From Arthonia radiata (taxonomy: Eukaryota; Ascomycota; Arthoniomycetes; Arthoniales; Arthoniaceae): DNA of 64,000 nucleotides. The stretch is taken from assembly GCA_002989075.1 (NCBI GenBank), contig PSQN01000013.1:185178-249177 (forward strand), read 5' to 3'. Numbering within the stretch: the first letter of the stretch is position 1; each line of letters opens with the position of its first letter. The notes beneath the pieces were generated by a model. The model made no database searches, was not told where the DNA came from, and worked only from the letters and a program-made list of their open reading frames with translations. Below are positions 1,699 through 43,121 of the stretch, piece after piece. A program made the translations under genes and the position numbers.

Positions 1699-1788
1699 AG
1701 CGACTTACAGATTAGTTACGAAAAGAAGGGACGAAACGCAACTTATAGGTGTTTAAAAGGCTGAGGGTCAATTGAGGACGATTTGACT

Positions 1789-19577: not shown

Positions 19578-20129
19578 ATGCCCCTCCCCGACATCTTTAA
19601 GGAAACCCATCTTCGCCGCATTCCCCCCACCGCCGACAGCACCGTCGCCCAACGTATCCCCAACACAATCTTGCTCTCCATCCTCGAGCAATCCATCATC
19701 CCGCCCGACACGCGCCACGCTGGCACGAAACTCGCCGCTGCCCGCCACTCCTACCGGTATCGCAAGGCTATCGTCTCGCTCGCTGCGACCTGCCGCTTCT
19801 TTTTCGCGGAGCTGTACACGATCCTCCGGCGCATGCACCGTTCGTTTGATCGCACGGCTACGGAGGCAACGGAAGCGGCGAAGTACTCAAATGTCATTTG
19901 GCGGCGGGAAGGTTTGGTATTGGTGTATCCGATGTTCGATGCGAGACGTGAGGAGCAGTTGATGGAAGGGGAGACGAGGTACGATGACCTTTACTGGCTG
20001 CAGAGTGGAAGGACGGAATTGAGGGGTGTAATGGGACGGGTTGATACGGCCGTTACGAGGCTAGAAGCGGCGCGGATTTGGGAGGAGAGGGAGGCGAGGA
20101 AGGCGAAGCGGGTGAAGTCAGAGTGTTAA
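19578..20129 (+). CDS. Array member 1: divergent F-box-like small protein
   Basis: 183 aa, single exon. It has an N-terminal IPNTILLSILEQSI block followed about 40 residues later by AIVSLAATCRFFFAELYTIL. This matches the overall layout of the array genes downstream (an LPxEIIxxII helix, then LATVSR and a helix) but is the least similar member. There is no H-x3-C or CC signature. The C-terminal part is charged and probably helical (RLEAARIWEEREARKAKR). The coding strand is C-rich in the first half and G-rich in the second. Membership of the family is inferred from position, size and N-terminal layout; it could be an unrelated F-box-like gene. Confidence 0.55.
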   Translation: MPLPDIFKETHLRRIPPTADSTVAQRIPNTILLSILEQSIIPPDTRHAGTKLAAARHSYRYRKAIVSLAATCRFFFAELYTILRRMHRSFDRTATEATEAAKYSNVIWRREGLVLVYPMFDARREEQLMEGETRYDDLYWLQSGRTELRGVMGRVDTAVTRLEAARIWEEREARKAKRVKSEC

Positions 20130-20369
20130 GTCGAGTTGGCGTTTGCGTTCTTGTTCCATGGTTTCGACCCATTGGGACGGAGATGGGATGATTGGAAGAG
20201 TTTGGATGAGAGATGGCACGTGATCTTGGCGTTTGTAAGTCTGCGGTCAAGAGGAGAACGTGAAGGCGACCTTCATTCATGTCACCACACTTCGCTCGAT
20301 ATTCACGCGACCTTTCGAAGCACCAAGGCCCTGACCTTCATCATAATTGTCGACAGCACTCCCGCAAGC

Positions 20370-20906
20370 ATGGCTCTCTCCCCTGACAACAGCCTGAAAA
20401 GAGACAGTCAAGTCACCGAGCTGGATCGTCTTATTTCGCTCAGATTCCCGCCAACAGGAAGAAGCCTACCTACTGAGGTACTCAACCTGATTATCGGCCA
20501 TGCAGTCTCCACCCACATACGAGATGACAGCATGCATGTCACCAACCTGCACTGTTCTCCGATCGTCCAGATTGGCATAACGTCCCGCAGCTTCTTCAAA
20601 GAAGCGCTGAACTGTCTCACAAAACTACGAGAGCATCTGATACATGAGATTGATGTCTTGCCCATCATCTACGGCTCCTTACGCCTCGACACAGGAACCG
20701 GCAGAGTATACGTGCCCAACTACAACAGCCCTCCGTCTTTTAAGGACACGAATTCCGCTTACGCAAGCTTGCGAATATTGATCGGATTGCGCAAACGGTT
20801 CCGACATGTTGATAATACTGCCGAGCTCTTGCTGGCGGTAGATGCTGTACTTCAGCAGAGAGCAGCACGAACGCTGCGCAACAACACAGCCGCGCTCTCA
20901 AATTGA
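20370..20906 (+). CDS. Array member 2: F-box-like small protein
   Basis: 178 aa from ATG 20370; the frame is open upstream without ATG. SLPTEVLNLIIGHAV (about residues 32-46) and, 25 residues on, QIGITSRSFFKEALNCLTKLREHLI match the two conserved helical blocks of the array. The middle contains HC (NLHC), but the H-x3-C...CC pattern of other members is not clear. The C-terminus has two possible amphipathic helices. The function is unknown; SCF-adaptor-like binding to Skp1 is only suggested by the N-terminal pattern. Confidence 0.6.
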   Translation: MALSPDNSLKRDSQVTELDRLISLRFPPTGRSLPTEVLNLIIGHAVSTHIRDDSMHVTNLHCSPIVQIGITSRSFFKEALNCLTKLREHLIHEIDVLPIIYGSLRLDTGTGRVYVPNYNSPPSFKDTNSAYASLRILIGLRKRFRHVDNTAELLLAVDAVLQQRAARTLRNNTAALSN

Positions 20907-21741
20907 CGAACTCGAAAGACTCAATCTCACTCGTCGACTTCGAAGTAGCCTGACAAAATGTGTACAGCTTCCACACGAGGTTTTCTGCTGCGTCGGTGAC
21001 GTCGCCGTGGTCATAGTGATCATCAGCAGAATCCAGAACAGAAAACGTGCATTCTCAGCCGCCGTAATCACATCCTATGGCTTTAATGAAGCACCGCCAT
21101 TTTAATAGCAGCAACGCTGCGAGTGCGACTGAGGATTGCCTGAAGAGCTCCTCTAAGAATCAACAACCATTCACATCTACTCTGGTCTGGGCTAGAGTTT
21201 CCGTTCAGCGACCGGCTCCCACCTGTTCTTCCCGACCGTACTCGTTCACGTTCGATCTGAAATAAGCTGCCGGCGAGCCACTCACCAGATCCACAGCAAC
21301 ACAGCGTTTACATCGTTGTACTGGCCAACGCTCACATTCTCATGCAGTTGATCGAGAATTGCTGCTGCAGCATCATTGAGTGAAGGAGAGCCTTGAAGAC
21401 GTTGGCATCTGGTATTTAATCAAAACAAGGAAGACCTGCGCTTGCTTGAAGAACCTATGCACGGGCCTTGGTATTGATCTATCTATCAGCAATCAATCGA
21501 GTGCAATGTACAGAAAGCTTTCACTGTTTCGACAGGCTTGACGCAATGAGCAATCATTGGGCACAGCAGGAGTAAACACGAAGGGATATGCCGATGCCCG
21601 CGCTAGCCCCTATGCAGGTCAGGTCACACCGCCAAGACTGAGACGGGTTTGCTACGCCTCGTTTCGTCTCGTCGTTTTCTTCTCTCTTCTTTGACTCATT
21701 CGCGACGATCACTCTCATTCCACACAATCAAACCCCCGGAC
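20907..21741. other. 835-bp gap in the array, no gene seen
   Basis: No frame here shows the LP...LATVSR signature, and the short ORFs lack coding character. It may hold a fully decayed array copy, but I cannot recognise one. The last about 90 bp are the 5' leader of member 3, pyrimidine-rich. Confidence 0.4.
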
Positions 21742-22197
21742 ATGCAAAAGATGCCTTTACTTTCCAGCAGCCAGAAGCCGCTGCCAACCCTTCCACCCGA
21801 GATCGTGTTACAGATCATCAAACACCGAGCCTCGCTGAATTTCCGCCAGCAAAGCGGCTACGCGCTCAAACGCACGATCAATCTTGCCACCACTTCACGC
21901 CTCCTGGTCAATGTCGTGCTGGAGACCGTGCAGAATGATGTTGCTGTTCTGAAAGCCGATCTTGAGGGTTTCGAAGCAAGCCATGACCCTGACTGCATTG
22001 TTAATGCGTATAGATTGGGTCGACAGCCTACATCTTTCAGTCCATGCTGTAATACCGTGGACAAGCGGATAAGCTCTAGTCACCGGGTGGGTACCTTGTC
22101 AGGCGCTGCAAAAGCGGCGAAGATAGCTCGGTCTTGTTTGTTGCGCCTTCAGCAAAAGCTGGCACTTCATCGGCCTGGGAATGTCCACACGGAGTAA
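21742..22197 (+). CDS. Array member 3: F-box-like small protein with H-x3-C and CC
   Basis: 151 aa from ATG 21742. The N-terminal block TLPPEIVLQIIKHRASL (about residues 15-31) is followed by INLATTSRLLVNVVLETVQNDV. A linker has SHDPDC and then SPCCN, the recurrent H-x3-C and CC signature that might bind a metal. The C-terminus AKIARSCLLRLQQKL is a predicted amphipathic helix. It is most like member 5 at 23161 (shared KHR/KYR, ALK, TSR and RLQ.KL blocks), pointing to an internal duplication. Confidence 0.7.
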   Translation: MQKMPLLSSSQKPLPTLPPEIVLQIIKHRASLNFRQQSGYALKRTINLATTSRLLVNVVLETVQNDVAVLKADLEGFEASHDPDCIVNAYRLGRQPTSFSPCCNTVDKRISSSHRVGTLSGAAKAAKIARSCLLRLQQKLALHRPGNVHTE

Positions 22198-22344
22198 ACA
22201 GTCCCTCTCCTATAGGCCAAATCGCGGCTCTCACACATGGAATCCCTCGATCGTGGCTGCGTGCCCTTGCTGCTTTATGACTTGACTTTTGACTGACACA
22301 CTAAAAGTGAAATATTGCGTCAGTCTCGCGCCACACTACGACCG

Positions 22345-22731
22345 ATGATCCAGTCTTCCAGCTCCCAGGAAGCGACATCCAGACAACAGCGCTTACCGGA
22401 CGAGCTCCTTGCCCGCATCTTCAAGCTCCGTGTGGCCGGCTATGCCAGCAGCGCAACCGTTTTTGCGCGGACAGATATCTTACGCCTTGCGACGGTCTCT
22501 CGTAAGGCGCTTGCGTGCGCTCTCGTGTCTTTGCGGGAAGAGAGAAAAGCCTACTGTCTTCTATCATTGGAGCTAAACGTCAACGGACAACGGATCGAAA
22601 GCGAAACATTGGTGAAGGACCGCGCAAAGATCTCGAACGATTTTTGCGACAAGACCTCGACAACCCTCGAGCGGTTACGTAAATTACTGCGAGCAACGCA
22701 CAGTGACTGGGTGGAGCCAGAGGACGTTTAG
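22345..22731 (+). CDS. Array member 4: short F-box-like protein
   Basis: 128 aa from ATG 22345. RLPDELLARIFKLRVAGY (about residues 17-34) is one of the clearest F-box-like starts in the array, followed by DILRLATVSRKALACALVSL. The H-x3-C/CC linker is missing, so the protein is short. The C-terminus TLERLRKLLRATHSDWVEPED closely matches the end of member 6 (LKKLRKLLRSTHADWEEP), so these two form a subfamily. Confidence 0.7.
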   Translation: MIQSSSSQEATSRQQRLPDELLARIFKLRVAGYASSATVFARTDILRLATVSRKALACALVSLREERKAYCLLSLELNVNGQRIESETLVKDRAKISNDFCDKTSTTLERLRKLLRATHSDWVEPEDV

Positions 22732-23160
22732 ATGATTTCGAGCAGCTGGTTTATCTTGTGTGAAGGGCAGGGGAGCATGCAACAAGTGATTGAGTTTGGG
22801 TAGATCAGCTCATAAAGAGAGAGCGAAGACTTATGGCATTAGGAAGTCTTCCTATCTCACAATTTGGCAGGGCGTAAGTAAAGTGTTGCAATAAACAATC
22901 GTCGGTGTCGCCATTCGGTCATTAGTCAGACCTAGGCAAGAATCTGGGTGCCTACCTGACAGAGGATGTTTTTGACCGCGACCATGTTGTTAGTTCCTAA
23001 GCGGCTCAGGAAGTATGCGCATCAAGCCCACTCACCCACTTTCTTGCGGGAGTCACTGTAAGCCAATGCCAAGCAAAGTGTCTTGGCATTTAGTGACTCG
23101 TCTCACCTGCTTCTTCCGCCCCGACTCGACAATCCATCGACTAGCTCACCCTTTGACGAC
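22732..23160. other. Intergenic within the array
   Basis: A 429-bp spacer between members 4 and 5. No coding signal or repeat was recognised. The frame of member 5 is open back to 23083 but starts there with TTG. Confidence 0.45.
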
Positions 23161-23634
23161 ATGCCAAAACTTGCAACCGCAACAGAGATGCCATCACTTC
23201 CAGTCAAGACGAAGAAAGCCCCGCCTCTTCCTGTAGATATCTTGATAATTATAATTAAATACAGGGAGCGCGCCATCCTAGCTACAAAGACTTACGATGA
23301 GGCGCTGAAAGCTTCCCTCCAGCTAGTAAGCACCTCGCGATCCTCCTTCAAGCCCGTGCTACAGGCCGTTCAAGATGAGATTGCCGAGCGCACCACTCAC
23401 CTTGATGACCGCGATTATCTACATAGCCCGACGTGCAAGACCTCTCCTAGCATTGGCGAAAGATGCGGTCAAGCATCAGTATTCCATTGCTGCTCTGGAA
23501 CCTCCACCTCTTTATTGAGTTGGGGAAGGGAGGTTGCAGTACGAGACGGGAAGAGGTTACTAGATCATTTGCGTCGACTTCAAAACAAACTCGATGCCGA
23601 TGATTCCCCCATGATGTCTTCAAGCGGCTGGTAA
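23161..23634 (+). CDS. Array member 5: F-box-like small protein with H-x3-C and CC
   Basis: 157 aa from ATG 23161. PPLPVDILIIIIKYRERAI, then LQLVSTSRSSFKPVLQAVQDEI, then HSPTCK and FHCCSG, then a C-terminal RLLDHLRRLQNKL helix. All four conserved landmarks of the array are present in the usual order. It is closest to member 3. No signal peptide or membrane segment is seen, so a cytosolic or nuclear location is likely. Confidence 0.7.
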   Translation: MPKLATATEMPSLPVKTKKAPPLPVDILIIIIKYRERAILATKTYDEALKASLQLVSTSRSSFKPVLQAVQDEIAERTTHLDDRDYLHSPTCKTSPSIGERCGQASVFHCCSGTSTSLLSWGREVAVRDGKRLLDHLRRLQNKLDADDSPMMSSSGW

Positions 23635-23728
23635 GCTCATTTGACTAATCATTCCATCCTCAAGAACACAACAGCAGTGAGTTGACTTGCAACACGCACT
23701 TGGCTACATTGCCTCCAATTGAGATCCT

Positions 23729-24166
23729 GTGAATGCATTTGCTGAGATTTTCTATAGTATTGTCGGTCTTAACCATTATAAACCTCCTCACTTATCTCGC
23801 GACTCCATCGCAGCATCGCTTGATTCTCAACGTCTCCCGAATGATGTGATACAGCGTATCTTACAATTCAAGGTCTGGGCCGATCTCGAGCACCGGTCGC
23901 AGTCCACACGCGGCGATATCCTTCGCCTTGCCACCGTTTCACGTCTCGCACTCTCAACTGTCACCGCAAGAATCGAGCAGGAAAGATGCGTGGTTCGGGA
24001 TGCAATTACCAACACTCAGTTGCTTCCTGAATATTCTCGTGAGCCATCGCACCCGTTATGTTGGGCCCCCGGCTACTTGGATGAGATCCATGAGGTCCTG
24101 AAGAAATTGCGCAAACTTTTGCGGTCGACTCATGCTGATTGGGAAGAGCCGCTATGGTATGAGTGA
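23729..24166 (+). pseudogene. Array member 6: F-box-like frame without an in-frame ATG
   Basis: The frame contains QRLPNDVIQRILQFKVWADL, GDILRLATVSRLALSTVTARIEQE and a C-terminal VLKKLRKLLRSTHADWEEP, all strongly array-like. However, there is no Met codon in frame between the upstream stop and the conserved region; the frame begins with GTG at 23729. Either the start codon was lost, or an upstream exon with an intron supplies it (I could not find a convincing one), or a near-cognate start is used. The rest of the frame is uninterrupted, arguing for recent loss or an unseen 5' exon. It pairs with member 4. Confidence 0.5.
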
Positions 24167-24710
24167 TGAGTAGATATGAGACCTGACGACCTTAGGCTCG
24201 GCCCCTCTATTTCGCCATCTTTCATGAGCCGTCACAAAAGTGATGCCGGAGCGTCCGTTTGACTGCTATCGGGAACGCGTGGTGACTGAGTTGAGCGAAG
24301 GTGGGTCTAAACAGTTGCGGAAAGTTGCACGTTGCTGAGCGCAAAGCCGTGACCGCGCCCTCTGCATTGTCGCGGGCCAGGTGGAATGCGCGCTATGGAT
24401 GGGAGCTTCGAGTCGCGCCAATCCAAGATGAAACAGTCGAGCCTGGCACGTCCAGGCTTTTCGATTCCACAAAGTGCAAGACACTTTGGTGGCCGGAACT
24501 CGGTTGACTTAGCAGCTACCTCTTAAAGGCCGAAAATCCGACAGAAACGTTGCACCCTAGAAGAGGTAAGAGGTGGCGATCTCGCCAAGACATCCACCGT
24601 TGTTACTTCCCAATGCTCTGGTGCCTTTGATTTCTTGCCTTTCTTTGGACTTCTGGCAAATCTACATCCAACATCGGCCACAGACTCGTTTCGATCAACA
24701 CAAACTCAAC
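24167..24710. other. Intergenic within the array
   Basis: A 544-bp spacer between members 6 and 7. Overlapping short ORFs occur on both strands, none with family motifs. The last about 140 bp are in frame with member 7 but have no ATG. Confidence 0.45.
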
Positions 24711-25193
24711 ATGGCACAAGCCACGCGCCCACCCCCACAACTGCCAAGCGAGATCATCGTCCAGATCCTGGTCATGCGCGTCCAAGCAGACCTCGAGTTG
24801 AACACGGTAATAGCGCCCGGCGAAACCCTCAAGCTCGCCACAGTCTCGCACATGTCTCTCGAAACCGTGCTCAGCGTCCTGGAGGCGGAGCACAAGGCGC
24901 TCACTAGAGCTCAAGAGGAGGTCATCAATCAGCACGATGCCTCGTGTAAAACCGTCATGGCGATCTGCATGCGTGGGATCAGCACAGGATCGTCGATGAC
25001 TACGTCTACACTCCGGGCGCGGTCGACTCTTGGAAATAGATGCTGCAAGTCCGGGGAGGACGACAAGGTTGTCGACTGCCAATTGAGGCGAAGGCGCGAA
25101 AAGTTGAAGAAGATGCAGAAGTTGGTTGACTGCTTGGAGGCTTTGAAGACCTTGATGGTGGCAGGTGAGATGGACGATGAACGTGAAGCCTGA
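24711..25193 (+). CDS. Array member 7: F-box-like small protein with H-x3-C and CC
   Basis: 160 aa from ATG 24711. QLPSEIIVQILVMRVQADLE, then ETLKLATVSHMSLETVLSVLE, then INQHDASCK and NRCCKS, then a Lys-rich amphipathic helix (RRREKLKKMQKLVDCLEALK) near the C-terminus. With members 9, 10 and 11 it forms the most coherent subfamily: LP.E.I..I...RV, then LKLAT.S, then a (I/V)I..H...C run at constant spacing. The reverse strand has a 219-codon ORF, which is a shadow. Confidence 0.75.
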   Translation: MAQATRPPPQLPSEIIVQILVMRVQADLELNTVIAPGETLKLATVSHMSLETVLSVLEAEHKALTRAQEEVINQHDASCKTVMAICMRGISTGSSMTTSTLRARSTLGNRCCKSGEDDKVVDCQLRRRREKLKKMQKLVDCLEALKTLMVAGEMDDEREA

Positions 25194-25498
25194 GCGGGAA
25201 GGGAGATCGCATCTGGGGTGTCCGCTACCCACCACATCTGTAGATCTGGCGTAGGCCATCAACGTCTACCGCGCGCTGGCAAGAACACTGTTGTCGTGCT
25301 GGGATGCAAGAGATCATCTCACTGCCTGAATCGTCTCTTACTGGCATAGCATTCTACATCATCCTGACGTATCTTTGGCCAGCGCGCTATTGGAAACGCT
25401 TAGACACAGCTTCACATTGTTTTGACGGCGACGTCTTTAAGTGCGCATGCCAATCGCATGCCATGCATATGCCTCGTCACACTATCTCCAGGAGCAGG

Positions 25499-26116
25499 AT
25501 GGCGACAACTCCCATTGCACACCTCCCCGACGAACTCCTCACCATCATCATCTCCCACTACGTCAACCTAAAACTTCACATCGGCAATTCCTCCGCACAC
25601 ACCGCCATCCTCCGCCTCGCCACTTTCTCCCGCCTCATGCTGACCACAGTCCGCAATACCCTGCGTGCCCACGAGGAATGCACCGAAGCCATTAGGAGAG
25701 ACATCATCAGAGATCACGAGTACAGCATATCCGAGCATTGGCGCGTGATGACCTTCAAAGGCCGCGAGGTATTGTGGAGGCGTGACACGCATTTGCACTG
25801 GACGCGGCTTTGCTGCCGGTCTGAGTGGGAGGTTGAGGTTGTGAATAGAGCTTTGGCCAGATTAAATGGTCAGTTGAATGTTTTGGGGAGGATGAGGGCG
25901 AGGGTTGATGTTTGTGACGCGTTGTTGGAGCAGGCAGGGGAGGTAAGTACGCCAGGGATTGAGCAAGGTGAAGTACAGTTTCCCCTTTCGCCTGGGTCAA
26001 GTCGCACGCTTGGGCCGTTTGACTCAATTTTGCAACTGCTTATTTCTCAGTCTTCGACTTCCTCTTTGCTTTCTAGCCCACGTGCACACGTGCAACATTT
26101 CCGCGACAACAACTGA
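25499..26116 (+). CDS. Array member 8: F-box-like small protein, optional 3' intron
   Basis: Starts at ATG 25499. HLPDELLTIIISHYVNLKL, then AILRLATFSRLMLTTVRNTLRAHEE, then a linker with DHEYS (the Cys of H-x3-C is replaced) and TRLCCRSEW. The C-terminal helix is NRALARLNGQLNVLGRMRARVD. A good intron (GTAAGT at 25943, CAG ending 26050, 108 bp) would give 169 aa, close to the family norm. Retention stays in frame and gives 205 aa with a Ser-rich tail. The sequence upstream to 25304 is open but lacks a suitable ATG. Confidence 0.7.
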   Translation: MATTPIAHLPDELLTIIISHYVNLKLHIGNSSAHTAILRLATFSRLMLTTVRNTLRAHEECTEAIRRDIIRDHEYSISEHWRVMTFKGREVLWRRDTHLHWTRLCCRSEWEVEVVNRALARLNGQLNVLGRMRARVDVCDALLEQAGEVSTPGIEQGEVQFPLSPGSSRTLGPFDSILQLLISQSSTSSLLSSPRAHVQHFRDNN

Positions 26117-26133
26117 AATCCAGTTTAGCAGCC

Positions 26134-26628
26134 ATGACGAGCAAGGACCGTAACCGCAAGTTGCCAACCTTGCCCACCGAGATCATCATCAACATTCTCA
26201 AATTATGCGTCGACTCCAGCCTCGCAGAAGGCAACATCGTCACACAAGGAAAGCTGCGAAAGCTAGCCACCGTCAGCCCCATGTTTCTAGCGACCGTAAG
26301 GGGCGCCCTGATTCGCGAACAAACCGCCTTGGAGACGTTGAAGGCAGACATCATCAAGCAGCACAAGCCAAGATGTACGGCCGTATCAAGTTTCCTGCCC
26401 ACGAACGAAAAGCCCGACATACTCACGGGCCGCACTTGGGTTGGTTGCTGTGTCTCGGAGGATCGGGCTAAGGAGGTATTCAGTGAGCTTAATAACATAC
26501 AGCATGTAGCCATCTGGAACATCGGCCATGTGCTCAATGAGCTCGAGTTGAGGAGTATGATGATGAAGGGGAAGGCGAAGAGATCGGGGGGTGCGATGGC
26601 TGCGCCTAAGGAAGGTGACAAGTCGTGA
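26134..26628 (+). CDS. Array member 9: F-box-like small protein with H-x3-C and CC
   Basis: 164 aa from ATG 26134, only 17 bp after the stop of member 8, the tightest spacing in the array. TLPTEIIINILKLCVDSSL, then KLRKLATVSPMFLATVRGALIRE, then IKQHKPRCTAV and WVGCCV, then VLNELELRSMMMKGKAKR. Here the usual RV is CV. The very short spacer means its promoter must lie inside member 8, or the two are co-transcribed. Confidence 0.75.
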   Translation: MTSKDRNRKLPTLPTEIIINILKLCVDSSLAEGNIVTQGKLRKLATVSPMFLATVRGALIREQTALETLKADIIKQHKPRCTAVSSFLPTNEKPDILTGRTWVGCCVSEDRAKEVFSELNNIQHVAIWNIGHVLNELELRSMMMKGKAKRSGGAMAAPKEGDKS

Positions 26629-26884
26629 CTCGACTTCATCGAGATCCTCTGACGCATGTTGCCGGCCAGTTTGAGAGGACATAGTGGGCTGTTTGCACGA
26701 AGCTTGTGAAAGTCTAGTTACTCAATCAGGAAGCGGCAGGTGAAACAAGCTAGCGTTCGCTTGCATGTGAATACTCTCTCTTTATTCAACTGCTTCTTCT
26801 TCCTTAACATTCTCTCCAACTCCTCCTCAACACCGCAACCAACAAACATCATCAAGCTCCCTCAGCCATAACACTGTCGTCATC

Positions 26885-27421
26885 ATGCCAGACTCAAGTC
26901 AAGCAGCGCCAAAATCGCAGCGCAATCTACCAAACGAGCTCATCATCAGGATCATCAAGCTCAGAGTCCAGGGATACCTCGAGACTGGTGGCGCTATCGC
27001 GAGGAGTGAGATATTGAAGCTAGCTACGCTGTCACACCTCGCACTCGACACCGTCACCGTATATTTGGACAAAGAGGCGGACGCTCTCGAAGTCAAAAGA
27101 TGCATCATTATCAAAAGCCATAAATATCATTGCGACGCCGTAGAATTCGCTCGCTACGGGCCGAGTCCTTCATCCTTTTCCGACCACATGCAACTGCATT
27201 TCACTCTCGACGGAAGGTTCTGCGTATGCCGCGAGCCGCGGGACGTTTGCAGGATTGCGGCGCAGAGAGCTTGCTTCATACGAAACATCATGTATACCAT
27301 CAACAAGCCCCGGAAGTACCTTGGCCAGCTCAAGAAGATGATGCTGGATGGCGTGTCAGAAGAAAAGCAATCGTTGTACACGGACCAGAAATTCCTTGAC
27401 GCCAATACAAAGCAGCTTTAA
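26885..27421 (+). CDS. Array member 10: F-box-like small protein
   Basis: 178 aa from ATG 26885. NLPNELIIRIIKLRVQGYLE, then EILKLATLSHLALDTVTVYLDKE, then IKSHKYHCDAV with the second Cys pair spaced as FCVCRE, then an Arg/Lys-rich C-terminal helix (INKPRKYLGQLKKMM). The N-terminal block closely follows the F-box opening LPxELLxxIL. It is preceded by a CT-rich leader that lacks ATG. Confidence 0.75.
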   Translation: MPDSSQAAPKSQRNLPNELIIRIIKLRVQGYLETGGAIARSEILKLATLSHLALDTVTVYLDKEADALEVKRCIIIKSHKYHCDAVEFARYGPSPSSFSDHMQLHFTLDGRFCVCREPRDVCRIAAQRACFIRNIMYTINKPRKYLGQLKKMMLDGVSEEKQSLYTDQKFLDANTKQL

Positions 27422-27661
27422 GCCCGCTGCTCAAGTATAACAGAGAACAGTGGCAGTCTACTTCTGATCATAGCTGCGGCCATCTGGGCTGAAGTATGTA
27501 ATAATCGCTGACCAAGCGTCCGGATTTGGAATGGCGAGGCGGAGCAGATCGAGACTAGCTCATCCGCGAACACTATTTCCTCCCTATTGATTTTTCGTTC
27601 TTCAACTCCTCCTCTTCATATTACTCGCAACGCTTCACTGGTCTGCTCAAGAACAGCCAGT

Positions 27662-28180
27662 ATGGCAGATTCCGTTCGACAGCCGCCAGTCTTACCTATT
27701 GAGATTATCATCAATATCCTGATCATACGCGTGAAGTCCTATATCCAGTCCGGAAGCGTCATCGGCCGCGTTGAGATACTCAAGCTTGCCACTGTCTCTC
27801 ATACCATCTTTGCTACCGTCTGCCACACCCTAACACGTGAGCGAGAACTGCTCAAATCCAACAGAAATCAGTTGATCAAGACTCATGAGTCTAAATGCAA
27901 AGCGATACGGATTTGCGGAATGTATGATCACGCTTCCATTCGCCATACGGCGTTACAACTTGAGCCTCTAGCTTTTGCGTGTGCCGAATGTCGCAAATCC
28001 GAGGGCGCCGCAATCGAGACGCATCTCACAATGGATCGCATCGAGAAGTTCCGAACCAGTGTGAAGAAGATAAAGACTCATCTCGACGATCTGAACGAGA
28101 TTATGGCGCGTGAGAATCCAGCAATTCGTCGCGAATTCGATCTTCGGCCCGATGATTCTGAATCCGATGGTGAAGACTGA
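27662..28180 (+). CDS. Array member 11: F-box-like small protein
   Basis: 172 aa from ATG 27662. VLPIEIIINILIIRVKSYIQ, then EILKLATVSHTIFATVCHTLTRE, then IKTHESKCKAI and ACAEC as the Cys pair, then FRTSVKKIKTHLDDLNEIM and an acidic tail (DDSESDGED). It is the last gene of the first array half. Together with members 7, 9 and 10 it gives the best alignment for a family profile. Confidence 0.75.
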   Translation: MADSVRQPPVLPIEIIINILIIRVKSYIQSGSVIGRVEILKLATVSHTIFATVCHTLTRERELLKSNRNQLIKTHESKCKAIRICGMYDHASIRHTALQLEPLAFACAECRKSEGAAIETHLTMDRIEKFRTSVKKIKTHLDDLNEIMARENPAIRREFDLRPDDSESDGED

Positions 28181-29305: not shown

Positions 29306-29350
29306 GATGGCTGACTGTGGATGCTGGGTTTTGGCAGCGAGCGTTTTATA

Positions 29351-32053: not shown

Positions 32054-32487
32054 TTACATGTTACCACAAATCGAGAGACTCGCATCCTGGTACCCGTAGG
32101 TATATGGACCTTCCCAATAATCACCTGACTCACACGTTAGCCAAGCATCTCATATGATGCCTTGTCCAACGCTAACTCACCTCCATGCGCCGGATACCCG
32201 CAGTGATGCCCAATGAGTTCGAACTTGGGGTCGACGTCTCTGGAGCTGCAAGGGAGCGGATCCTTGTTGTAGTTGCACACGTACGCAACCGTGTTTCCCC
32301 AGGTAGCGGAGGTATGGCCATGCGGCTTGATGAGATTGCCGGCATCGCACCAGGCGTTCAGGCTGCTCTGGGCCACCGCAAGGTCGTCTTGGGAGACGGC
32401 GCCGCCCTGGCAGTCAATTTGCTCTAATGCGGCGGCGAAGGTGGAGAGGAGCAGGATGCCTGCGGAGATGGCGGTGGTGAAGTGCAT
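32054..32487 (-). CDS. Small secreted six-cysteine protein, effector-like
   Basis: Exon 1 32487-32181, intron 32180-32125 (56 bp, GTGAGT...GTCAG) and exon 2 32124-32054 give 125 aa. It has a signal peptide (MHFTTAISAGILLLSTFAAA, cleavage near residue 20) and a mature domain of about 105 aa with six cysteines at 26, 47, 71, 80, 96 and 122. The last cysteine is supplied only by splicing, which supports the model. The mature protein is rich in Gly, Tyr, Trp and Asp, and the end reads GDYWEGPYTYGY. Size, secretion and an even Cys count fit apoplastic effectors or antimicrobial-type proteins of plant-associated fungi; the role is inference. The longer unspliced frame starting at 32604 is less likely. 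Confidence 0.7.
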
Positions 32488-34651
32488 TTTGATGGCTGGG
32501 CGGTGGACCTGCGGAGGTTTGGGTGATGCTGGTGAGCGTGAAGTGGTGTGCTTGAATTTGTGATGTGTGGTAGATGTCGCGGAGATGGAGAGGGATAGGG
32601 ACATCTACTTCGTCAGTGCCTCTTTATATGTTCGGGGCTCAACATGGAGTGTTGAATTTTTGGTAAGCTGACGCTCGTGTTTCAGCCGCGCGCCATGTGC
32701 TCATTTCTATGTCTCCACATTAAGTCTATACGGATAATTTTCACTTATAGCGACACCATTCGGTGGCTGTGCCGGCCTACTTTGGTTTCTTGACGGTGTG
32801 CTCGTGGTCAGTAGCAAGGCGTCGCCGAAATCGCTCACAGTTCAATGCTGCGGCGACGGACGCGGTAGATTAGTGTACGCCATGTCCCAGACTGCTTGGA
32901 GCAGTCAATGAGACGCGCCCAATCCACGACCGTCGTGCTCAGCAAGTTCCGGCTCAGATGACAGTGAGCAACAGTGCTTTCAGAAGGGTAGCGCCGGCAA
33001 TGATCCGTGGAACTAGGCCGTCACAGCCAGCAGTATTGACGGTGCGATTACAACGCACGATCTTTCGCACGGTGAGGTGACAACGGAGGTTGCCCATCGG
33101 AGAAAGCCATTGAGACCCCTGTCATCACGGTACAGCACATTTCCAGAACGAAATGTAAGCGCAACTTCAGGGCACTCAACGAATACAATCGCTGAGACGA
33201 AGGCGATCACAGCGATAGCGGGCGGGTATCAACAGTTCGCCTAGTCACTAGTGATATAGCGTGCCGCTGTTGACCTGGAATTTGCCCTGATCGATTCGTT
33301 GAGCCAGACGCTAACAGCCCGTTCAGCCTCCGCGCTATCTCCTCTTCTGCCAGGGCACCCGCCGGGGCTCCCGGCCCCATAATATCATACCTAATATAGT
33401 AAATGTTCAAGGAGGTTCATGACACCACGCGTATCGGTAGAGTGCTGGGAGAGGCATTTGCGCGTATCAATAAATCGAGAAAGAGCTTTTTCTAGAATCT
33501 CAGCATACAGTATCACCGATATGACCTGAGTCTTGTTGCTTAGAATACTTGTTGCGCACGCTAGACTCTAACGCAGTCGTCTGCGGTGGTCCTGCAGTGC
33601 AAATATTTTCTGATGCGGGTTCAGTATATACCTATTCAGGAAAGAGTCGAGTGCCCCGGCGGGTGCCCAGGCAGAAGAGGAGATACCCCGTATTATTATT
33701 ATCGTATTCTTTGTGGCTCAGCCACGTGCCCTGGGCATTCCAGCTTACGCCCACCGCGCCTAGAGCTCACGCCTTATTGTTGACTGCTGCAACTATTAAT
33801 TTGACGATCTCGCGGGCTGCAACTAGCTATTGCAGTTTGCGGGAAACCATTGGAACATCGGATTCGACATTGTCGTAGACGAATCTCTAAGTCTATATAA
33901 GGCATCAGCTCGTATTTCCGTCTGAACACAGCAAGCATTGACGTTTAGTCTAGAATGTTTACTCGTACACTAGTGCATGTGTAATAGCTACGCGCTGACA
34001 AGTGGTTTGCTCGCTGATGTTTGAACAAGGATGCGTTCTGCACAGGCCCTTTTAGACATGCAACTACATAAGATATCTTCGCTCGACTCAACTTGGGAGC
34101 CCAAAGCCATCTGCTCGACTTTGAAAGGTGGAGGTTGGTAGACTTCCAATTCCACTCAGTCGAGCTTTGTCGAGACCGACACTGCGGGCATGACTGGATT
34201 GTTTACCCACAGGCTCGTACCAAGAGAAGTTGGGCAGTATGCCATACGATCAGGATGTCAAAGCTCCTGTATTGAGCGGCATGGCTCTGTTGTCGACTAT
34301 GATGCCGAATCTCTATAGATTGTCGGCGTCTTAGGGGGGTTTGGTCGCTTCACGAGGATGAAGATAAGAATTATCCTTGTTGGACGACTGCCTCAGTGTC
34401 AAGGTACAAGCCAAGCAACGTGACGCAAGCCAGCCCAGAAATCGCTTTCAATACCGCAGGATTTGTTTCTTTCCGATTGGGAGGCAGAAAATTAGCCACG
34501 AACATCAACAGTTGGAATGCCTCACAAATGGCTACCTCGGTTGCGAGCCAGACCTTACCCAGACGCGAAGACGGGTTGGGCAGAGGGTGCTGCATAGACA
34601 AATTGTGGGACGGATTAGTGGCGGCGAGCGTGACAACGCGATGATTAAGTC
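32488..34651. other. 2.2-kb gene-poor stretch
   Basis: Only short ORFs without motifs. A TATA-like CTATATAAGG at about 33892-33901 precedes no readable gene. It is interpreted as non-coding accessory sequence. Confidence 0.4.
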
Positions 34652-34918
34652 TTGGAACCTCAACGGCTCGGTAACCCCAAGGGCCTGCACGGCGTGAAGC
34701 CGTTGTCCACGTATCTGGTGAGTTTCAGTCGAGGCAGCGGGGCGTGCATCGGGCAGAATCTGGCGTATATGGAGCTGTATGTGGCGCTCGCGACGGTGTT
34801 TAGGAGGCTGAAGTTGGAGCTGTACGAGACGGATAGGAGGGATGTGGATTTTGTGTATGATGTGGTTGTGCCGATGCCGAGGAGGGATACGCAGGGTGTG
34901 AGGTGTGTTGTTAAGTGA
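34652..34918 (+). pseudogene. Cytochrome P450 C-terminal fragment
   Basis: The frame carries the heme-binding loop FSRGSGACIGQNLAYMELY (cysteine ligand in GACIG), followed by the usual L-helix and C-terminal strand, to a natural stop at 34918. Just upstream LGNPKGLHGVKPL matches the stretch before the heme loop, but the Trp of the normal PERWLGNP motif is missing and the frame cannot be followed further back. The I-helix and ExxR motifs are not found upstream. Only about the last 85 residues of a 500-residue enzyme remain, so this is a relic. Confidence 0.75.
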
Positions 34919-35728
34919 AGGTGGGGAGAGATATAGAGGGCGGGTGTGAAGAGGGATCGTACGGGGTCGACCGGGTAGTCTGCGGATAAAAGTTATCCTA
35001 CTTTCCTCGCAAAAGATCCCGTCAATCTCGCTTAGTTTTCAGGTTGACTTATTGGATACTTCGTACCTCGTTGCGGTCGGATCTCTTGACGAGTAGCCCT
35101 TGCCAGGCGCGCTGCGTTGAATAGGCTCTCTTACGCACCTGCATACAGAAGGCAATGCGAACAACAGGCGTCTGAAGGTGCTCCACTTCGCCATCTGCCA
35201 AACGGTATTGTATACTCAACCTTTGGTCCGCGTTCGTGCGGTTTACATAGGCTTGCAGGCTTCATCTTGGGGTTAGCTGAACCCATGCCTAACTTTCGTG
35301 GTGTTACGCTACCGCATTACTGGAGACTGAACAATGAAAGACTTTAATTGACCCTATCATGCAGACCATCTCTGCTTGTGGGCGCAGTGGCATTCGCGCT
35401 GCTCCTGTGCACATCGGCAGTCGAGTATCCATAACAACTAAAATTGATGGCATAGAGGACGCTGCTCGTATATTTTCTATATCATAGTCGAGTTCGGGTA
35501 CTCTTTCGTTGTACATGTAGTATTGTAGCAGACGACGTGCTCAAGGAGGTCAATCATGGAGTGCGAAAGTCAAGCCACGTTGAGTTTGGTCCAGACTTTG
35601 ACGGACGGTAAATTTTAGTCACGTGATAAACTGCCAAGACCTATGTTTGCCAAGCTTCAGTCCTACCTATCATTTCGCGTGCCGCAGCAGCGTGGAATCG
35701 TCAGATCATCATAACCATCCTTTTCATT
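34919..35728. other. Gene-poor spacer
   Basis: Downstream of the P450 relic. Short ORFs without features; no repeat noticed. Confidence 0.4.
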
Positions 35729-36560
35729 GTGCGTGCTCATCGTACCTTTCTACTGCGATCTGGCAGGAAGGGGTCTGATCTACAAGTAGCGCCGCTTGCA
35801 ATCCCAGATCCTTGCGGCTGGAATGCAGCGCAACACCAATATACAATTTCGGGCTTCATCCAGCCATGCCTTGACAGGATATCGGAGAGAGTCCCCGCGT
35901 CCAAACATGCGAATACCCCAAGAGTCAGGCCGCATGTGTTCAGATTTGTGCACACACTCGACGTAGAAGAGGCGGGAGTTGGCTCAATCGGACCCTGTGG
36001 CCCTCAAGAGTGCTTGTACAACATATCTGCCACTGCACAGGCTATGCACATCCAGTGTATTGCCGAAGGTGCGACACACTGGACAAAAGACACTCGGACG
36101 TGTTACTAGATACTACGAACGAGCAACTTGTCCACTTCATCAAACTTCTCGGCCCCACCTGGTATCTGTCTACTGCGCCCGTTCCGTCTAAGAATGCACC
36201 CCGCCCCATTGCTCGCAATTGTCATTCGTAGGACCCGCTACAAATTCGCGCATGAAAATTGTTTGATCGATATCAGGGGACCGGTGCGGGCGGATCAAGA
36301 AAATGGGGCTCCTACACTATCCGCATTAATGCACAGACTGATGCCACCTTGGCCTACCCGCTAGCGCGTGGACATATGGGGAAATAGGTCCAAAAAACGC
36401 GTAATATATGTGAGTCTTTTGGGTCGGTCTATTCATCGAATTCCTCGGATGGCGGTGCGTCTCAAGCGTCCGATCAAGGCGACTTTGTTACCAGCATACA
36501 GCTGGGCTACGTGTTCGGGATCATGAACGCTAACTGGCTATACAAATTGACACCTAGAGG
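35729..36560 (+). pseudogene. Fragments of an unknown multi-exon membrane/secreted protein gene
   Basis: Several exon-like pieces read as extracellular domain sequence. One has DPCGWNAAQHQYTISGF and then GPCGPQECLYNISATAQAMH (35810-36050), with C-x-Y-N motifs like those of large fungal plasma-membrane proteins of unknown function. Another has KWGSYTIRINAQTDATLAYP (about 36304-36363). A third has a Ser-rich stretch and IQLGYVFGIMNANWLYKL (about 36424-36545), ending at a clean GTAAGT donor (36561). I could not find an ATG, or splice all pieces in one frame. The last piece splices in phase into the exon at 36609 that leads into the hydrolase gene, so part of this may be that gene's true 5' region. 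Confidence 0.3.
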
Positions 36561-36608
36561 GTAAGTGACGCAGTTGAAGTACCAACTTCGCCTTGACTAA
36601 CATCTCAG

Positions 36609-38057
36609 GGCGTTTTACCAAACCCATATCGACAACAGGGGTTACGGTGAGCAAGAATGGCAAGACCCAGGCAATATTTCAAAGATCGAGCATGGCAATG
36701 GCCCCGAAAACGATTTCCTTAAGATCGAGCATGGCAATGGCCCTGAAGACGAATACCTTAAGATCGCGCATGGCAACGGCCCTGACGGCTCCGGCCGTAT
36801 CTATAGTAGGTGGCGAATCGAATTTGTGCAAGTCGCACGTTAACTTATGTCGCCCGCTTATATTCCTTATATCAGAGCAACAAATCGTGCCCTTCAAAAT
36901 CCACAACCCAGATACAGACCAGCCGATCGCTAAGCGGTCACAGCATCTTCTTCCCGTCCCAGAAAAGGGCCTGCACTCTTGGATGATCTTCAAGCATGGG
37001 TAAGAATGGAGCCTTTACGCGCTCAACGTTTCGGCTAAATGCAGTTTCGTCAGCGGCCGACATACTGTCGCCGCTCGTACACACGTTTTTTGTAAGCGCT
37101 CTTACACTGACGCTCTACACTTAGACGTGGGACTTTTACGAATGATGACACAGCCAAAAAAATACAAACAGATTTAAGAAGCTCGCTCCAAAAAGATGCC
37201 CCCGCACCAGCATCAACATCCCACATCAAAGACGCTCGATGCATCGTCTTTTTCCACGGGGTCGATTCGAATATCCGCCATCCAGTGCGCCTTGCAATTT
37301 ACAGCACATTACTCAACAAGCTCTGTCAATCCGGTCAACTATTACTTTTACTAGCCGTCGATTACCGCGGCTTCGGATTCAACAAAGGCAATCCAAGCGA
37401 GAGTGGCCTCATTGAAGACGGTATAGCTGCAGTCAACGTCTTTTTGCACCGGCTTGATATAGACTCGCGTCGCATCATGCTCGTTGCGCATAGTCTTGGA
37501 TCGGCAGTCGCGCTCGCGACGTTTGAACACTTCAGGAACCATCAAAGGACGGTATTTGGCGGCTTAGTCATCTCCGGACCTTTCACTCATGCCCATGATG
37601 CTATAGCAAACAAGATAGCTCAACGGCAGTGGGGTTGGCAACATGCTTTTGCGGACACATGGGACAATTTGCGTCGGATGCGACTTATCATGACCGAGGG
37701 TGCTGACTGTCCCGTGGTCATCGCACATGCGGGCGACGACGATGCCACGTTAGCTTCAGGCTCTGTGAAGTTGTATCTGGCTGCGAGAGAAGCTGGTGGA
37801 GTCGAGAATGAGAAGGGGTCTTTGACACTAGAAGAGCAGAGGTGCGAAAGAGGTAAGATCTTTACCGGACGCGAGACATTCACAAGATCGACAACCATCC
37901 ATGGCAACGAAGTGACTCTCATCATCAACTGGAATGGCGGTCAGTGGTTTCCGATCGATTGACCAACGATTGCAAGCTGACTTGCTCAGGCCATCAACAT
38001 AATGTGAACGACCCAAGGGTAGTCAAGAAGATCGAAGAGCTCTACGTGAAAATGTGA
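36609..38057 (+). CDS. ABHD12-like alpha/beta hydrolase, 5' end unresolved
   Basis: Exons 36609-36805, 36876-36999, 37125-37939 and 37990-38057 join in phase to about 400 residues. The second exon starts QQIVPFKIHNPD, like the strand before the hydrolase fold of ABHD12 proteins. Later come CIVFFHGVDS (oxyanion region), DYRGFGFNKGNPSESGL, nucleophile VAHSLGSA, acid HAGDDDATLASGS, and in the last exon the catalytic His in GHQHNVNDPRV. Skipping the last intron would lose this His, so the spliced form is preferred. The first exon carries three tandem 13-residue repeats (KIEHGNGPEND-type, 36682-36798) unknown to me in this family. The start lies upstream, probably in the 35.7-36.5 kb fragments. 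Family members are membrane lipid hydrolases. Confidence 0.6.
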
Positions 38058-38583
38058 ATGTGAAGTCCATTCTGTAGGCGATACAAGCGTCTAAAACCCA
38101 GCAAAGAACACTGCAAGACGAGAGTCCGCACGATCGGAGTACGCAATGACCTTGAAACAACGATCTACCGATGATACAACTGAGGCCAGCCTCTTGGTTC
38201 CAGCTCGTATGACTTAAACATGTGAGGCTCATCATCACTCACGCCTTCACCTACAATCGACAGCTTGCATAGCTTGCTGCCGCTCTTCTGACCTTCTGGC
38301 CTACCTTACCTTTTCTAGTTTCGCTCACCCTTGCTTCCTTCCTGCCATATCAAACACACTTTTCCGCTTGCTATACTGTGGTAAGCTAGAGATTCCACGC
38401 ATTCTATTCTATTGGCTTGAAAGCAATTTTTCCAGCTGCAGCGCCCGGCGTCGTCTCACGATCCTCCTTTTGAAACAGCAATGAACTTCAGAAGTAGCTG
38501 TACTGACAATGTGATTCTGATAGGGCGCCACGAAGCACCCTACAATAGTCCATCGCGCCTTCACACCACGTCGTCCATCAGCT
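38058..38583. other. Intergenic between accessory block and second array half
   Basis: 3' flank of the hydrolase gene and 5' flank of array member 12. No supportable ORF. Confidence 0.45.
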
Positions 38584-39219
38584 ATGGCAACTATCAACCC
38601 CTTCGCTGCGCCAATCAAGAATCCGAACAAACTAAAGCCAACGGCCGCCTCTACGCCTAAATCGGCCACCAAGCCCAAAGCCGAGCCCAAGTCGAAGGTT
38701 GCGAAGCCAAAGGCAACAGCGAAGCCCAAGGCTAACCCAGACCCCGGAGACGCTCCCAAGAAGCGCCAGTACCGCCGCAGGAAGAGAATACCGACTCTTC
38801 CGAACGAAATCGTCCTCTCGATCCTGCGCCACCGCGTTACCGCCAACAATGCCATCGGCTCGTTCATTTCGAAAGCGGACACGCTTCGCCTGGCCACGAC
38901 GTCTCATTTCGTTTTGGACGCCGTCATTCGCGAGCAGAATCTTCAAGTCCGCAACGCCGTAACGCAGATGCTGGCCTTGCATGAGAAAGACGACGCGTGT
39001 AAAGTCAGTCCGAAAGTAAGTGGACTTGGCCTATGTCTAAACATCCTGGTTAATGAGCGAGGTCCGACCGAGGCTTCGTAGAACATCGTTCCTTCCTTTT
39101 GGGCACTTCAGAAGGCGTGGAGCTCGGCATGGAGACAGATGCAGTGTTTGAAGGGATTGCAGGAGAAATTGAAGATGGCTAGGGGTGAGGCAAAGGCTGA
39201 GATGGATAAATCGACCTGA
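38584..39219 (+). CDS. Array member 12: F-box-like protein with Lys/Pro-rich N-terminus
   Basis: Exons 38584-39015 and 39082-39219, 66-bp intron (GTAAGT...TAG), 189 aa. An N-terminal tail of Lys, Ala and Pro repeats (KPKAEPKSKVAKPKATAKPK) precedes RIPTLPNEIVLSILRHRVTANN, then DTLRLATTSHFVLDAVIREQ. Exon 2 supplies the conserved amphipathic end CLKGLQEKLKMAR. Exon 1 is exactly 90 nt longer than exon 1 of members 13 and 15 (432 versus 342 nt), about the length of the basic tail. The tail resembles DNA/RNA-binding or nuclear-targeting extensions. Without splicing the C-terminal helix would be lost. Confidence 0.75.
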
Positions 39220-39792
39220 GTATGAAAGAGATACGGACGCGTTGGCGATGGACGTCGATTAATGCATTGCGGGCAGATTGGCATGGCGAATTGGTGAACA
39301 TCTCGGCCAGACAAGGAGACTGGGCGCTGCGAAGATGGTAGGCGTTCGAACATGAGAATTAGTATGCAGCCAGAGAAATTATATTCGCCCAAAGAGTAGC
39401 TTTACATACATTGACAACGCAGCTACCCAGGTGAAGAACATCCATTTTTGCTATATGGAAGAGGTAGACTGCGATTGATGATGCGACGCATCTCAGCAAC
39501 CAAGGGACCCTGTGCTTCGCGTTGAGCGACGGTGGACGTCCGTCATCAAGTCATGCAGCGGACTGGCAGAAGGATATCAAGAAGAATGCGGTCGCATCAA
39601 CTTTCCCTTTTGGTGTCCCCTAAAACTCCATTCCCTAATATCTCAAGATGAGATACTCACCTACACCCCGTAGTGCTTGCCCACTAAACATTGACTCACC
39701 CCTTACTCTCATACTTCTTCCACGCTCGTTGACCTCTCTCCAAGCACACATTGGTCGCCCACCAGGCATCCAGCAGAACCCATCCGCCAGTC
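39220..39792. other. Intergenic within the second array half
   Basis: A 573-bp spacer; no gene or repeat recognised. The frame of member 13 is open upstream of its ATG without an earlier ATG of good context. Confidence 0.45.
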
Positions 39793-40352
39793 ATGGCACC
39801 ACCAATGAGCGCCAGCGATTATCAGCGCCCTCCCCCTCCGCTGCCGCTGGAGCTGATCTTCAAAATCATCGCACTCCGCGTCAGAGGCAACAATGAACAT
39901 CCATGCTACCTCAGTCAGAAGAATACTACCCGCCTAGCCACTACTTCACACACGGTGTTTTCACACGTCTTGAGCGTCCTCGAAGATGATCGCGCTAATA
40001 TGCTCCCTGAATTGATGAGTCTACGGGAGGAGTACGAGAAGGGGTGTGACGTATTCACCATCACTGTTATTAATCAGGCAGCAAGCCCTCCTACGCAGGA
40101 TGTTCACACGCATCGCATACTCAAGAGCCCAGCGGTAAGATAACGAGGAGGGGTTGTTCGATCGGTTATGCTGATGACGTGGATTAGGTGGAACTGCAAA
40201 AAGAAATAGACAGGTCTCGAAAGATCACTGATGCCATTGAGGGAGTGGGGAGATGCTTGCAACGCCTTAAGTGGCAGCTTGAGGAAGTACGCAAGGAAGG
40301 TGGCGATGAGCAGACCAAGGTGGAACCAGAGGATGAGGTTGCGACCAGGTGA
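39793..40352 (+). CDS. Array member 13: F-box-like small protein, two exons
   Basis: Exons 39793-40134 and 40188-40352, 53-bp intron (GTAAGA...TTAG), 168 aa. PPLPLELIFKIIALRVRGNNEHPCYLSQKNTTRLATTSHTVFSHVL is the paired F-box-like motif; the second exon encodes IEGVGRCLQRLKWQLEEVRKE and an acidic end. Exon 1 is 342 nt and phase 0, identical in length and phase to member 15. CYLSQ and GCD supply cysteines in place of the H-x3-C/CC pattern of the first half. Confidence 0.75.
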
Positions 40353-40719
40353 TTGAGGTGGCATTTGATGCGAGATCGACGCAAGAGCTTTGGTTGCTTC
40401 CATCCACACGTGAAATTCGCATGTCCAGGAGAGTGGAGGCTGCATGCACATTCATCCCACGTCACGTAGGGTATGGATCACTGGAATTTCCACGTTAGCG
40501 GACTGTTTCTTGAGAGAGCTCGTCGAAGCCTGCCGCTTCAATCAAATGATGAACAGTGTGCTCTGAGACGCATCTACCCTCGTGCCTTGCGCCCACTGTT
40601 CAGACCTTGTCCGTCCCCTTTCCCTGGTTTCTGACGTGATCCGGAATCAACGTCACGAAGTATACGCAACGACGGACCCGTCATCCCATCATCAACCGCC
40701 GTGCCCTCACCAATCCCCA

Positions 40720-41255
40720 CCATTCCTAGCACCCATACCACTCCCAATTTCCGCATTCCCGCCAAATCGTCCTCATAAACATCACCTCCGCATCCAAGCC
40801 TGCAACGGAAACCCCCTTTCGTCTCTCAACTCGACATCGCCAACCTCGCATTCATATCGCGCGCCTTCCTCACTCACGTCCTTACCGTAATGCAGCAAAA
40901 CCTCACCGACATGCTCGAACGCAAGAAGACGTCAACGCCAGTACAATGAGTAGTGCATCAGCAAGAACCAGATTCATACACCGATGCCGGGCACCGGGTT
41001 TCGGCAGGTGAGAGTTGAGGTGAAGGTCGTGAGGGCAGCGCTTGCGGTGAGTTGCGCACACGGTGGGTTTGGCTTGGAAATTGTGCTGATGAATGCGGAC
41101 TAGGCTTGATAAGCAGATGCGGGTTCTGCAGAATGGGTGAAGCGATGCAAGAGGTTGTGGAGGCTCTGCAGGTTGCGGTGAGGAAGTTGGGGGGCGAGGA
41201 GGTTGATGATGCGGTGGAGAGCGTGCATCATTTGAGTGTGAAGATCGTGTGGTGA
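40720..41255 (+). pseudogene. Array member 14: dead paralogue
   Basis: One frame reads FVSQLDIANLAFISRAFLTHVL, clearly the second block of the array family (compare CYLSQKNTTRLATTSHTVFSHVL in member 13), and then QQNLTDMLERKK. Upstream the LP block (about 40733-40775) is split between frames and a TAA lies in frame; a TGA follows at about 40948. After an intron-like gap, 41140-41255 reads AMQEVVEALQVAVRKLGGEE, the expected second exon. Gene order, spacing and both exons are retained, so this is a whole-gene relic. Confidence 0.55.
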
Positions 41256-42580
41256 TGCGTTGGGCGGTTCCAAGGTCGTTGACTCAGGACTGGCTGTCGT
41301 GGTGGACTTGGTCGCCAGGTCGGTAAGGTGAACAACACCAGCGTGTGTGGAGTGTGCTCGTATGATGAGATCGGCTTGAGTTGGGAATTATAATGGGCAT
41401 GTGAGTAGGCCGAATTTCCCATGAGACATGCGTCCTACATAAACAAGATGGGCGTATGAGTTCTTTGCATCACATGCAAAACCTATTCGCATCGAATTCT
41501 TGGCTCTGAAACGTGCTTTCAGAGCCAAGAGGACGCTGGATGCGATCTGTCAGGTCAAAATTCACTTACAACGCTCGCAGAGAATGCTCGAGGTAGTGCG
41601 CCGCGCGGCTATTGTGGGTAAGCAGCTGAAACGCAGATGGGACAACTGAGAGATGGAGAAGAGAGGCTGAAGGGGTGTTCGGAGAGAGCACATGGGCGGG
41701 TATGATTTGCTTCCGGAATGAGCTTATTCAGACGACGCCTCCGCTTTAGCAACTAAAAGGCCCATCAAAGAACAATAGAAGAGACAGTGTGGAGGCTGTC
41801 GACATACCCTAAGAATGAAATGTCAGCACAGCACCTTCTGAAGCTCAGTAAATGTTTCAATCCAAGTGTTTTGACATCACGCCGGCGCGCCAGCTGCCGA
41901 AAGTTGGATTTTAAGTGACAGAAGATAAGGTGTCGATGCTGTAGATCCACCCCGGTCCTCACCCTCTCGTTGTTTCGTTCATCTTGCTCCCGGAACAGGT
42001 GGACATATCGTCACGCAACCTGGAAACCGTCATCTGTAACGTCTCAGGGCTGAAAAGCGCAAACACCGTGTTTGATTGAACATACGCATGTGATTGGAAC
42101 AGTGTATCATGCCGTACTGGACGTCGGCAATAACAGGGGAGCGTTGAAGGCGCGAGCGCGCGCTAGAACCAAAGCATACAGAATACACGGGGTTCCCATC
42201 ACTGCTAACGCATTATATGCTATCTCAAGTGCGTCCTCGAGAGGAAGGCGATGCAGAGCCACGCCCCCATGAAACGCCCGCCAGTGCTCGATAGTCACAA
42301 GAAAGAAAAGAATTCTTCGGTATTCGAGTGGGTGAAGAGGGAGTCGCTCATCAAATCCGTGCCAGTGCATTGCTCGTTTCGATGATGGTGAAGTCGTGAG
42401 AAAGCCGCTTGTGCCTTCCTCATCCGTAGATACTACTTTGTTATTTCTTGGCGCACTTGGTATGGTCAATTTGACTCTTACCTTTGCTCGCTCTTTCATC
42501 TCAGCTCAGTGCCTCGCTCTCTACGCAGCACACGCTACCTCGGGAACGCTGAGGGCGCAAAACGAGCTCTCAGGCCTACG
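41256..42580. other. 1.3-kb spacer with a perfect inverted repeat
   Basis: No gene is supported. At 41499-41529 CTTGGCTCTGAAA and TTTCAGAGCCAAG form a perfect 13-bp inverted repeat with a 5-base loop (CGTGC); one further A-T pair extends it. This could be a transcript hairpin or the remnant of a small inverted-repeat element. The rest holds only short, motif-free ORFs. Confidence 0.45.
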
Positions 42581-43121
42581 ATGTCGTTCAAGAACGATGC
42601 TATTAGCAAGAAGAGACAATTGCCTATCTTACCGCCAGAAATCGTCTTCAAGATCATTGCTCTTCGAGTCCAGGATAACGACCATCACGCTTGCTTCATG
42701 TCCCAAGCAGACACAGTTCGTCTTGCGAACGTCTCCCATGTTTTCCATGACCTAGTCAGTCGCACGCTTGAGCATGATGCCGCAGCTTTTTCCGAGGAGC
42801 AAACTCTCGCCTGTGAGAAATGGAATTACATGTGCATGGATTTTGCCAATGGGCGTGATTCGCACAGCTCCAGAATGGTGCCAACAGGTCTGCAACCCTT
42901 CTACCCAACAGGTCCAAAAGCGGTAAGCAACCACTATGTGTTCCCAATCATGGTTCTACGGTTAATGTTTTGCGCTCCAGGATGAAGTGCAAGAGATAAT
43001 AATTGAGATGCATCTGAGATCAGGGTGTGTAGAAAAGGTTCAAAAGGCATTGGGGCGCTTGAAATGGATGTTGAGGAAGGTGAACGAAGCCAAGAATGCT
43101 CCATCAACGGGCGAAGAGTGA
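42581..43121 (+). CDS. Array member 15: F-box-like small protein, two exons
   Basis: Exons 42581-42922 and 42981-43121, 58-bp intron (GTAAGC...CCAG), 160 aa. PILPPEIVFKIIALRVQDNDHHACFMSQADTVRLANVSHVFHDLV is followed by a linker with CEKWNYMC; exon 2 gives GCVEKVQKALGRLKWMLRKV. It is most similar to member 13 (KIIALRV, .C..SQ..T.RLA..SH, LKW.L) and has the same intron position and phase. It is the last gene of the array. Confidence 0.75.

Follow-up and report, generated by a model that had tools for sequence, protein, structure and literature searches.

The closest described system is the F-box or F-box-like domain (PF00646, PF12937) of substrate adaptors in SCF (Skp1–cullin–F-box) ubiquitin ligases. 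In the available text of the respective reports, Aspergillus nidulans has 74 F-box proteins (PMC9744329) and Macrophomina phaseolina has 31, of which several possess additional known domains and over half are encoded by intronless genes (PMC7991009). Copy-number expansion with fast evolution of F-box genes is described in Caenorhabditis and plants (PMC8665587, PMC3719486). Here, we analyzed a 64,000-nt window of the Arthonia radiata genome containing a tandem array of 12 plus-strand genes (window positions 21742-43121, as used throughout for features of the window) that encode small proteins with an F-box-like N-terminal domain. The array resembles the expansions of Caenorhabditis and plants in copy-number growth and fast evolution, although the kingdoms differ, while the M. 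phaseolina set, for which the available text reports neither a cluster nor duplication (PMC7991009), contrasts with the tandem arrays found here. A search of literature titles and abstracts found no description of such arrays, and a search of a large protein collection, the fungal content of which was unchecked by a control, found no relative. New here are a His/Cys pair in seven of the 12 members and 25 further motif-bearing frames elsewhere in the genome.

The array and its probable relatives elsewhere in the genome

The window corresponds to C3:185178-249177 in a genome of 33.5 Mb in 16 contigs. Telomere repeats are present at both ends of contig C3, which places the array ~207-228 kb from one chromosome end. 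The tandem array is real: the 12 genes form one family in which any 11-member profile recovers the remaining gene at E 3.6e-7 or lower (leave-one-out E values are given below for each member). Seven members carry the His/Cys pair, namely m03 (21742..22197, 151 aa, HDPDC and CC, E 1.5e-17), m05 (23161..23634, 157 aa, HSPTC and CC, E 3.6e-7), m07 (24711..25193, 160 aa, HDASC and CC, E 2e-31), m08 (25499..26116, 205 aa counted from the motif-adjacent ATG, E 3.4e-16), m09 (26134..26628, 164 aa, HKPRC and CC, E 2.4e-20), m10 (26885..27421, 178 aa, HKYHC and CVC, E 2.5e-27) and m11 (27662..28180, 172 aa, HESKC and CAEC, E 3.1e-25), the last being the member chosen for modelling. The pair is absent from m04 (22345..22731, 128 aa, E 6.2e-18) and from m06 (23723..24166, aligned portion beginning at ~23804, E 1.1e-16). 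Three further members have two exons in our splice models: m12 (38584..39219, 189 aa, intron 39016-39081 of 66 nt, E 3.5e-18), m13 (39793..40352, 168 aa, intron 40135-40187 of 53 nt, E 7.3e-23) and m14 (42581..43121, 160 aa, intron 42923-42980 of 58 nt, E 4.1e-19). All three introns are in phase 0 with GTAAG donors and AG acceptors, and the spliced tails align with the C-terminal part of other members. The match of the second-exon frame of m13 (E 1.2e-9) is circular because the matched profile already contains that frame.

An earlier reading of the window made without database searches (hereafter, the sequence-only reading) had counted 13 intact-looking frames, one gene without ATG and one clear pseudogene. 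The profiles sustain 12 plus-strand members but leave out two plus-strand frames at the left edge, m01 (19578..20129, 183 aa, E 0.57) and m02 (20370..20906, 178 aa, E 0.074). The gene without ATG is m06, an open frame with no in-frame ATG, and the pseudogene is a plus-strand relic at ~40745-40946 in which a frame change separates the two blocks (profile E 4.5e-4 for the second block; the first identified by eye). The spliced end of m14, 43121, also agrees with the end given earlier. A possible second relic on the same strand, at 21196..21348, retains the second block only and has a weak profile match (E 0.0027). By sequence comparison, m01 and m02 are distant relatives at best. The nearest match of m01 elsewhere in the genome is gene L057 at C3:1291134 (E 0.0047), which it also joins in the tree (support 90/82). 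For m02, a weak reciprocal match links it to gene L059 (E 0.14 and 0.28); its join in the tree is supported at 80/25 and subject to a long-branch warning. Used as queries against the whole genome, m07 and m04 returned array members only.

Members are strongly diverged, with a median pairwise identity of 22% among the 12 and 40% for the nearest pair, m04 and m06; no DNA repeat of at least 30 nt (14-nt seed) links any two of them. Frames that stay open over 120-205 codons at such identity argue for long purifying selection. In a tree of 37 N-terminal domains, 95% of 200 bootstrap trees set the array apart on one side of a branch, and none of 500 label shuffles was as low. The array-branch support of 80/79 is modest, the bootstrap values had yet to stabilize and many of the branches are long. 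The array probably originated by old tandem duplication from a single ancestor.

Dispersed genes were found by own-genome searches with m01, m02 and m14 and then with the genes thus recovered, the leading matches toward them being weak (E 3.6e-5 to 0.45). From 17 of the 21 loci retrieved came the 25 motif-bearing frames, which lie at 12 places on seven contigs and include small clusters at C2:3367-3371 kb, C3:1281-1297 kb and C16:205-206, 233-238 and 1145 kb. In the tree, each of the C16 clusters (205, 233-238 and 1145 kb) stays united, and the C2 and C3:1281-1297 kb clusters do not. Like the array members, the dispersed genes (for example, L059, L063, L064, L066, L068, L071 and L076) have an LPxE block followed by one rich in A/S, but the spacer between the blocks is longer and variable, and they are placed outside the array's branch. 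HHalign comparison of dispersed and array profiles gave 98.0% over 67 columns, of which only the part outside the LP motif is independent because the frames were chosen by that motif. Kinship of the array with the dispersed genes is likely, and the array is probably not a local curiosity. Canonical F-boxes are also plentiful in this genome (85 PF12937 matches at E<=0.1). Small same-strand clusters of them occur at C3:358639-365383, C4:586381-587895, C10:1632840-1635229 and C13:771064-773476.

The N-terminal domain and the tail

The array domain shares with the F-box the LPxE helix, the hydrophobic pattern, the (V/T)S(R/H) block and three predicted helices in order; it differs in 11 extra residues, subthreshold scores and a short tail with a His/Cys motif and a helix. 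For comparison, we built an F-box profile from 31 of the own-genome PF12937 matches (40 of 85 retrieved, nine omitted). HHalign aligned the 12 array N-terminal domains to it with 84.5% probability and a score of 30.8; the alignment spans 37 columns and contains an 11-residue insertion. The best of 300 column shuffles scored 19.4 and the reversed profile scored 9.6. The second half alone scored 13.4 in the correct register, with two of 300 shuffles higher. A 39-row profile of array and dispersed genes with m01 and m02 reached 93.4%, 25 of its rows having been chosen by the LP motif. Pfam matches to PF12937 below the cutoff were found for m04 (E 0.0017), m14 (0.0023), m06 (0.043) and m12 (0.061). 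Across the 35 array and dispersed proteins, PF12937 was the commonest family (six proteins at E<=1), with PF00646 in three. The matches listed included 23 other families, of which 20 occurred in one protein each, two in two and PF11900 in three; the lowest single E value belonged to TSC-22 in one protein (6.1e-5). AlphaFold2 predicted the N-terminal domain as three helices (13-30, 33-43 and 47-79) in the expected order with a predicted local distance difference test (pLDDT) score of 91.5. These comparisons suggest that the first domain is probably F-box-derived and F-box-like, in keeping with the F-box-like start that the sequence-only reading had recognized. Its remark on longer-than-canonical spacing is likewise borne out: from the start of helix 1 to the VSR block, the array has 34 residues versus 23, the commonest value among own-genome F-boxes (14 of 31 measurable matches).

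Beyond the domain, m03, m05, m07, m09, m10 and m11 carry H-x3-C at a near-constant distance, followed 21-36 residues on by CC, CVC or CAEC. The seventh carrier, m08, retains CC with its His beside it and has HEYSI at the usual HxxxC position. Co-occurrence of H-x3/4-C and C-x0-2-C in seven of 12 members compares with 0.94 expected and was reached in none of 2,000 shuffles. The signal is weaker in the dispersed genes: three of 25 tails contain both motifs (0.83 expected, p 0.035), and C-x0-2-C, counted by itself, is present in seven (3.5 expected, p 0.03). A candidate zinc site is the natural guess for this pair. The AlphaFold2 model of whole m11 (pLDDT 81.5, predicted template modelling score 0.70) ends in a long closing helix at 108-151. 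Pfam analysis of the 14 array frames gave no leucine-rich repeat (LRR), WD40 or kelch match, in line with the earlier statement that no substrate domain follows. Only F-box models recur, and the tails share no known domain.

Proposed role and its alternatives

We regard it as an evenly balanced proposition that the array encodes small Skp1-binding adaptors with an F-box-derived domain and a fast-changing tail. Under this proposal, the locus would code for 11 or 12 small adaptor proteins of about 120-205 aa. The helical N-terminal domain, in which the 11 additional residues before the VSR block amount to three helical turns beyond the length usual in F-boxes, would probably dock on Skp1. There follows a linker, bearing in seven of 12 members the His/Cys pair, which may bind zinc, and, as modelled for m11, a long C-terminal helix that may fold back on the domain. 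A fixed docking domain with diverging tails is as expected if each tail chooses its own partners or substrates on behalf of SCF ubiquitin ligases, so that the simplest view would be a set of small SCF adaptors sharing Skp1 and differing in what each holds. If true, these would be very small protein-degradation adaptors, each a docking part with a tiny variable reader. More tentatively, and with clearly less confidence, the dispersed genes may extend this set to a genome-wide superfamily of several dozen mini F-box adaptors (long-spaced F-box, zinc knuckle and helix), distributed among many tandem clusters of a fungus with RIP-marked repeats (RIP, repeat-induced point mutation). This superfamily would serve as a diversifying set of SCF receptors that recognize many partners, comparable to the larger F-box sets carrying LRR or WD40 domains elsewhere. 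Array and dispersed genes together offer a ready profile for gauging how widely mini-adaptors are spread.

Several results weigh against an F-box origin and bear on the main structural rival, an independent small helical family, such as a zinc-supported binder of nucleic acid or protein, in which helix 1 resembles LPxE by chance. None of the 14 array frames reached the Pfam cutoff of 24.3 bits (best 18.5 bits), and the proteins are, therefore, classed as F-box-like rather than as F-box members. Most of the HHalign signal resides in helix 1, with the first half alone scoring 25.2, and in a positive control, fifteen divisions of the 31 F-box matches into 12 versus 19 scored 71.6-79.9, compared with 30.8 for the array. 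Foldseek returned no match at E<=0.001 for the predicted structures, and the only match at E<=10 of the 12-row N-domain profile to Protein Data Bank sequences was the fructose repressor (E 1.1), located at the LATVSR block. The profile comparison with F-boxes that the sequence-only reading had proposed, thus, gave a divided answer, with a relation above all 300 shuffles but far below the F-box-split control and mostly in helix 1. A chance resemblance would nevertheless have to accommodate an F-box score that no shuffle reached, a second block in the correct register and the recurrence of PF12937 and PF00646 where other families are mostly single-protein matches, and we consider an independent family somewhat unlikely.

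If the domain does dock on Skp1, the main functional rival holds that the proteins are decoys or regulators that bind without recruiting substrates and tune or block other SCF complexes. Their small size, their many divergent copies and the recurrence of F-box models with no recognized substrate domain would all suit this role, while the His/Cys pair and the predicted long C-terminal helix suggest an active tail, and a varied tail would seem needless in a pure decoy; we judge it improbable. Less probable still, and in our view quite unlikely, is a decaying array without present function, in which old duplicates drift into pseudogenes. The frame-changed relic, the possible second relic, the member without ATG and the extreme divergence fit such decay, but 11 members retain an ATG, full-length frames and near-constant spacing at 22% median identity, and the phase-0 introns, with their GTAAG donors, persist in three.

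Surroundings of the array

The sequence-only reading had placed the array beside a transposon-rich region, which holds as far as seen. Window positions 1-8000 show strong skew of the repeat-induced point mutation (RIP) type (TA/AT 1.75 and 1.45; (CA+TG)/(AC+GT) 0.69 and 0.78), absent from the rest of the window, and contain diverged long repeats with mutual identity of 74-90% within 4-5662. By the same dinucleotide and repeat analyses, the array itself has neither RIP-type skew nor long repeats. If the adaptor proposal is true, the locus would show that a fungus with mutated repeats is still able to keep large tandem families. Within the repeat-rich region, the frame at 483-941 resembles, by eye, a segment of a retrotransposon.

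Immediately to the left of the array, at 17419-19209, lies an intronless frame that we take to resemble a cytosolic aspartyl-tRNA synthetase. Between m11 and m12, an alpha/beta hydrolase frame occupies 37111-37959 (PF12146 E 1.2e-9), and a frame at 34649-34915 resembles the C-terminal region of cytochrome P450 proteins and may be a fragment. On the minus strand, a small cysteine-bearing frame at 32137-32604, in which an internal Met is followed by a stretch resembling a signal peptide, appears by eye to encode a small secreted protein. Repeats of 39 nt, a unit length that is a multiple of three, form short arrays at two sites, 36682-36798 and 44528-44605.
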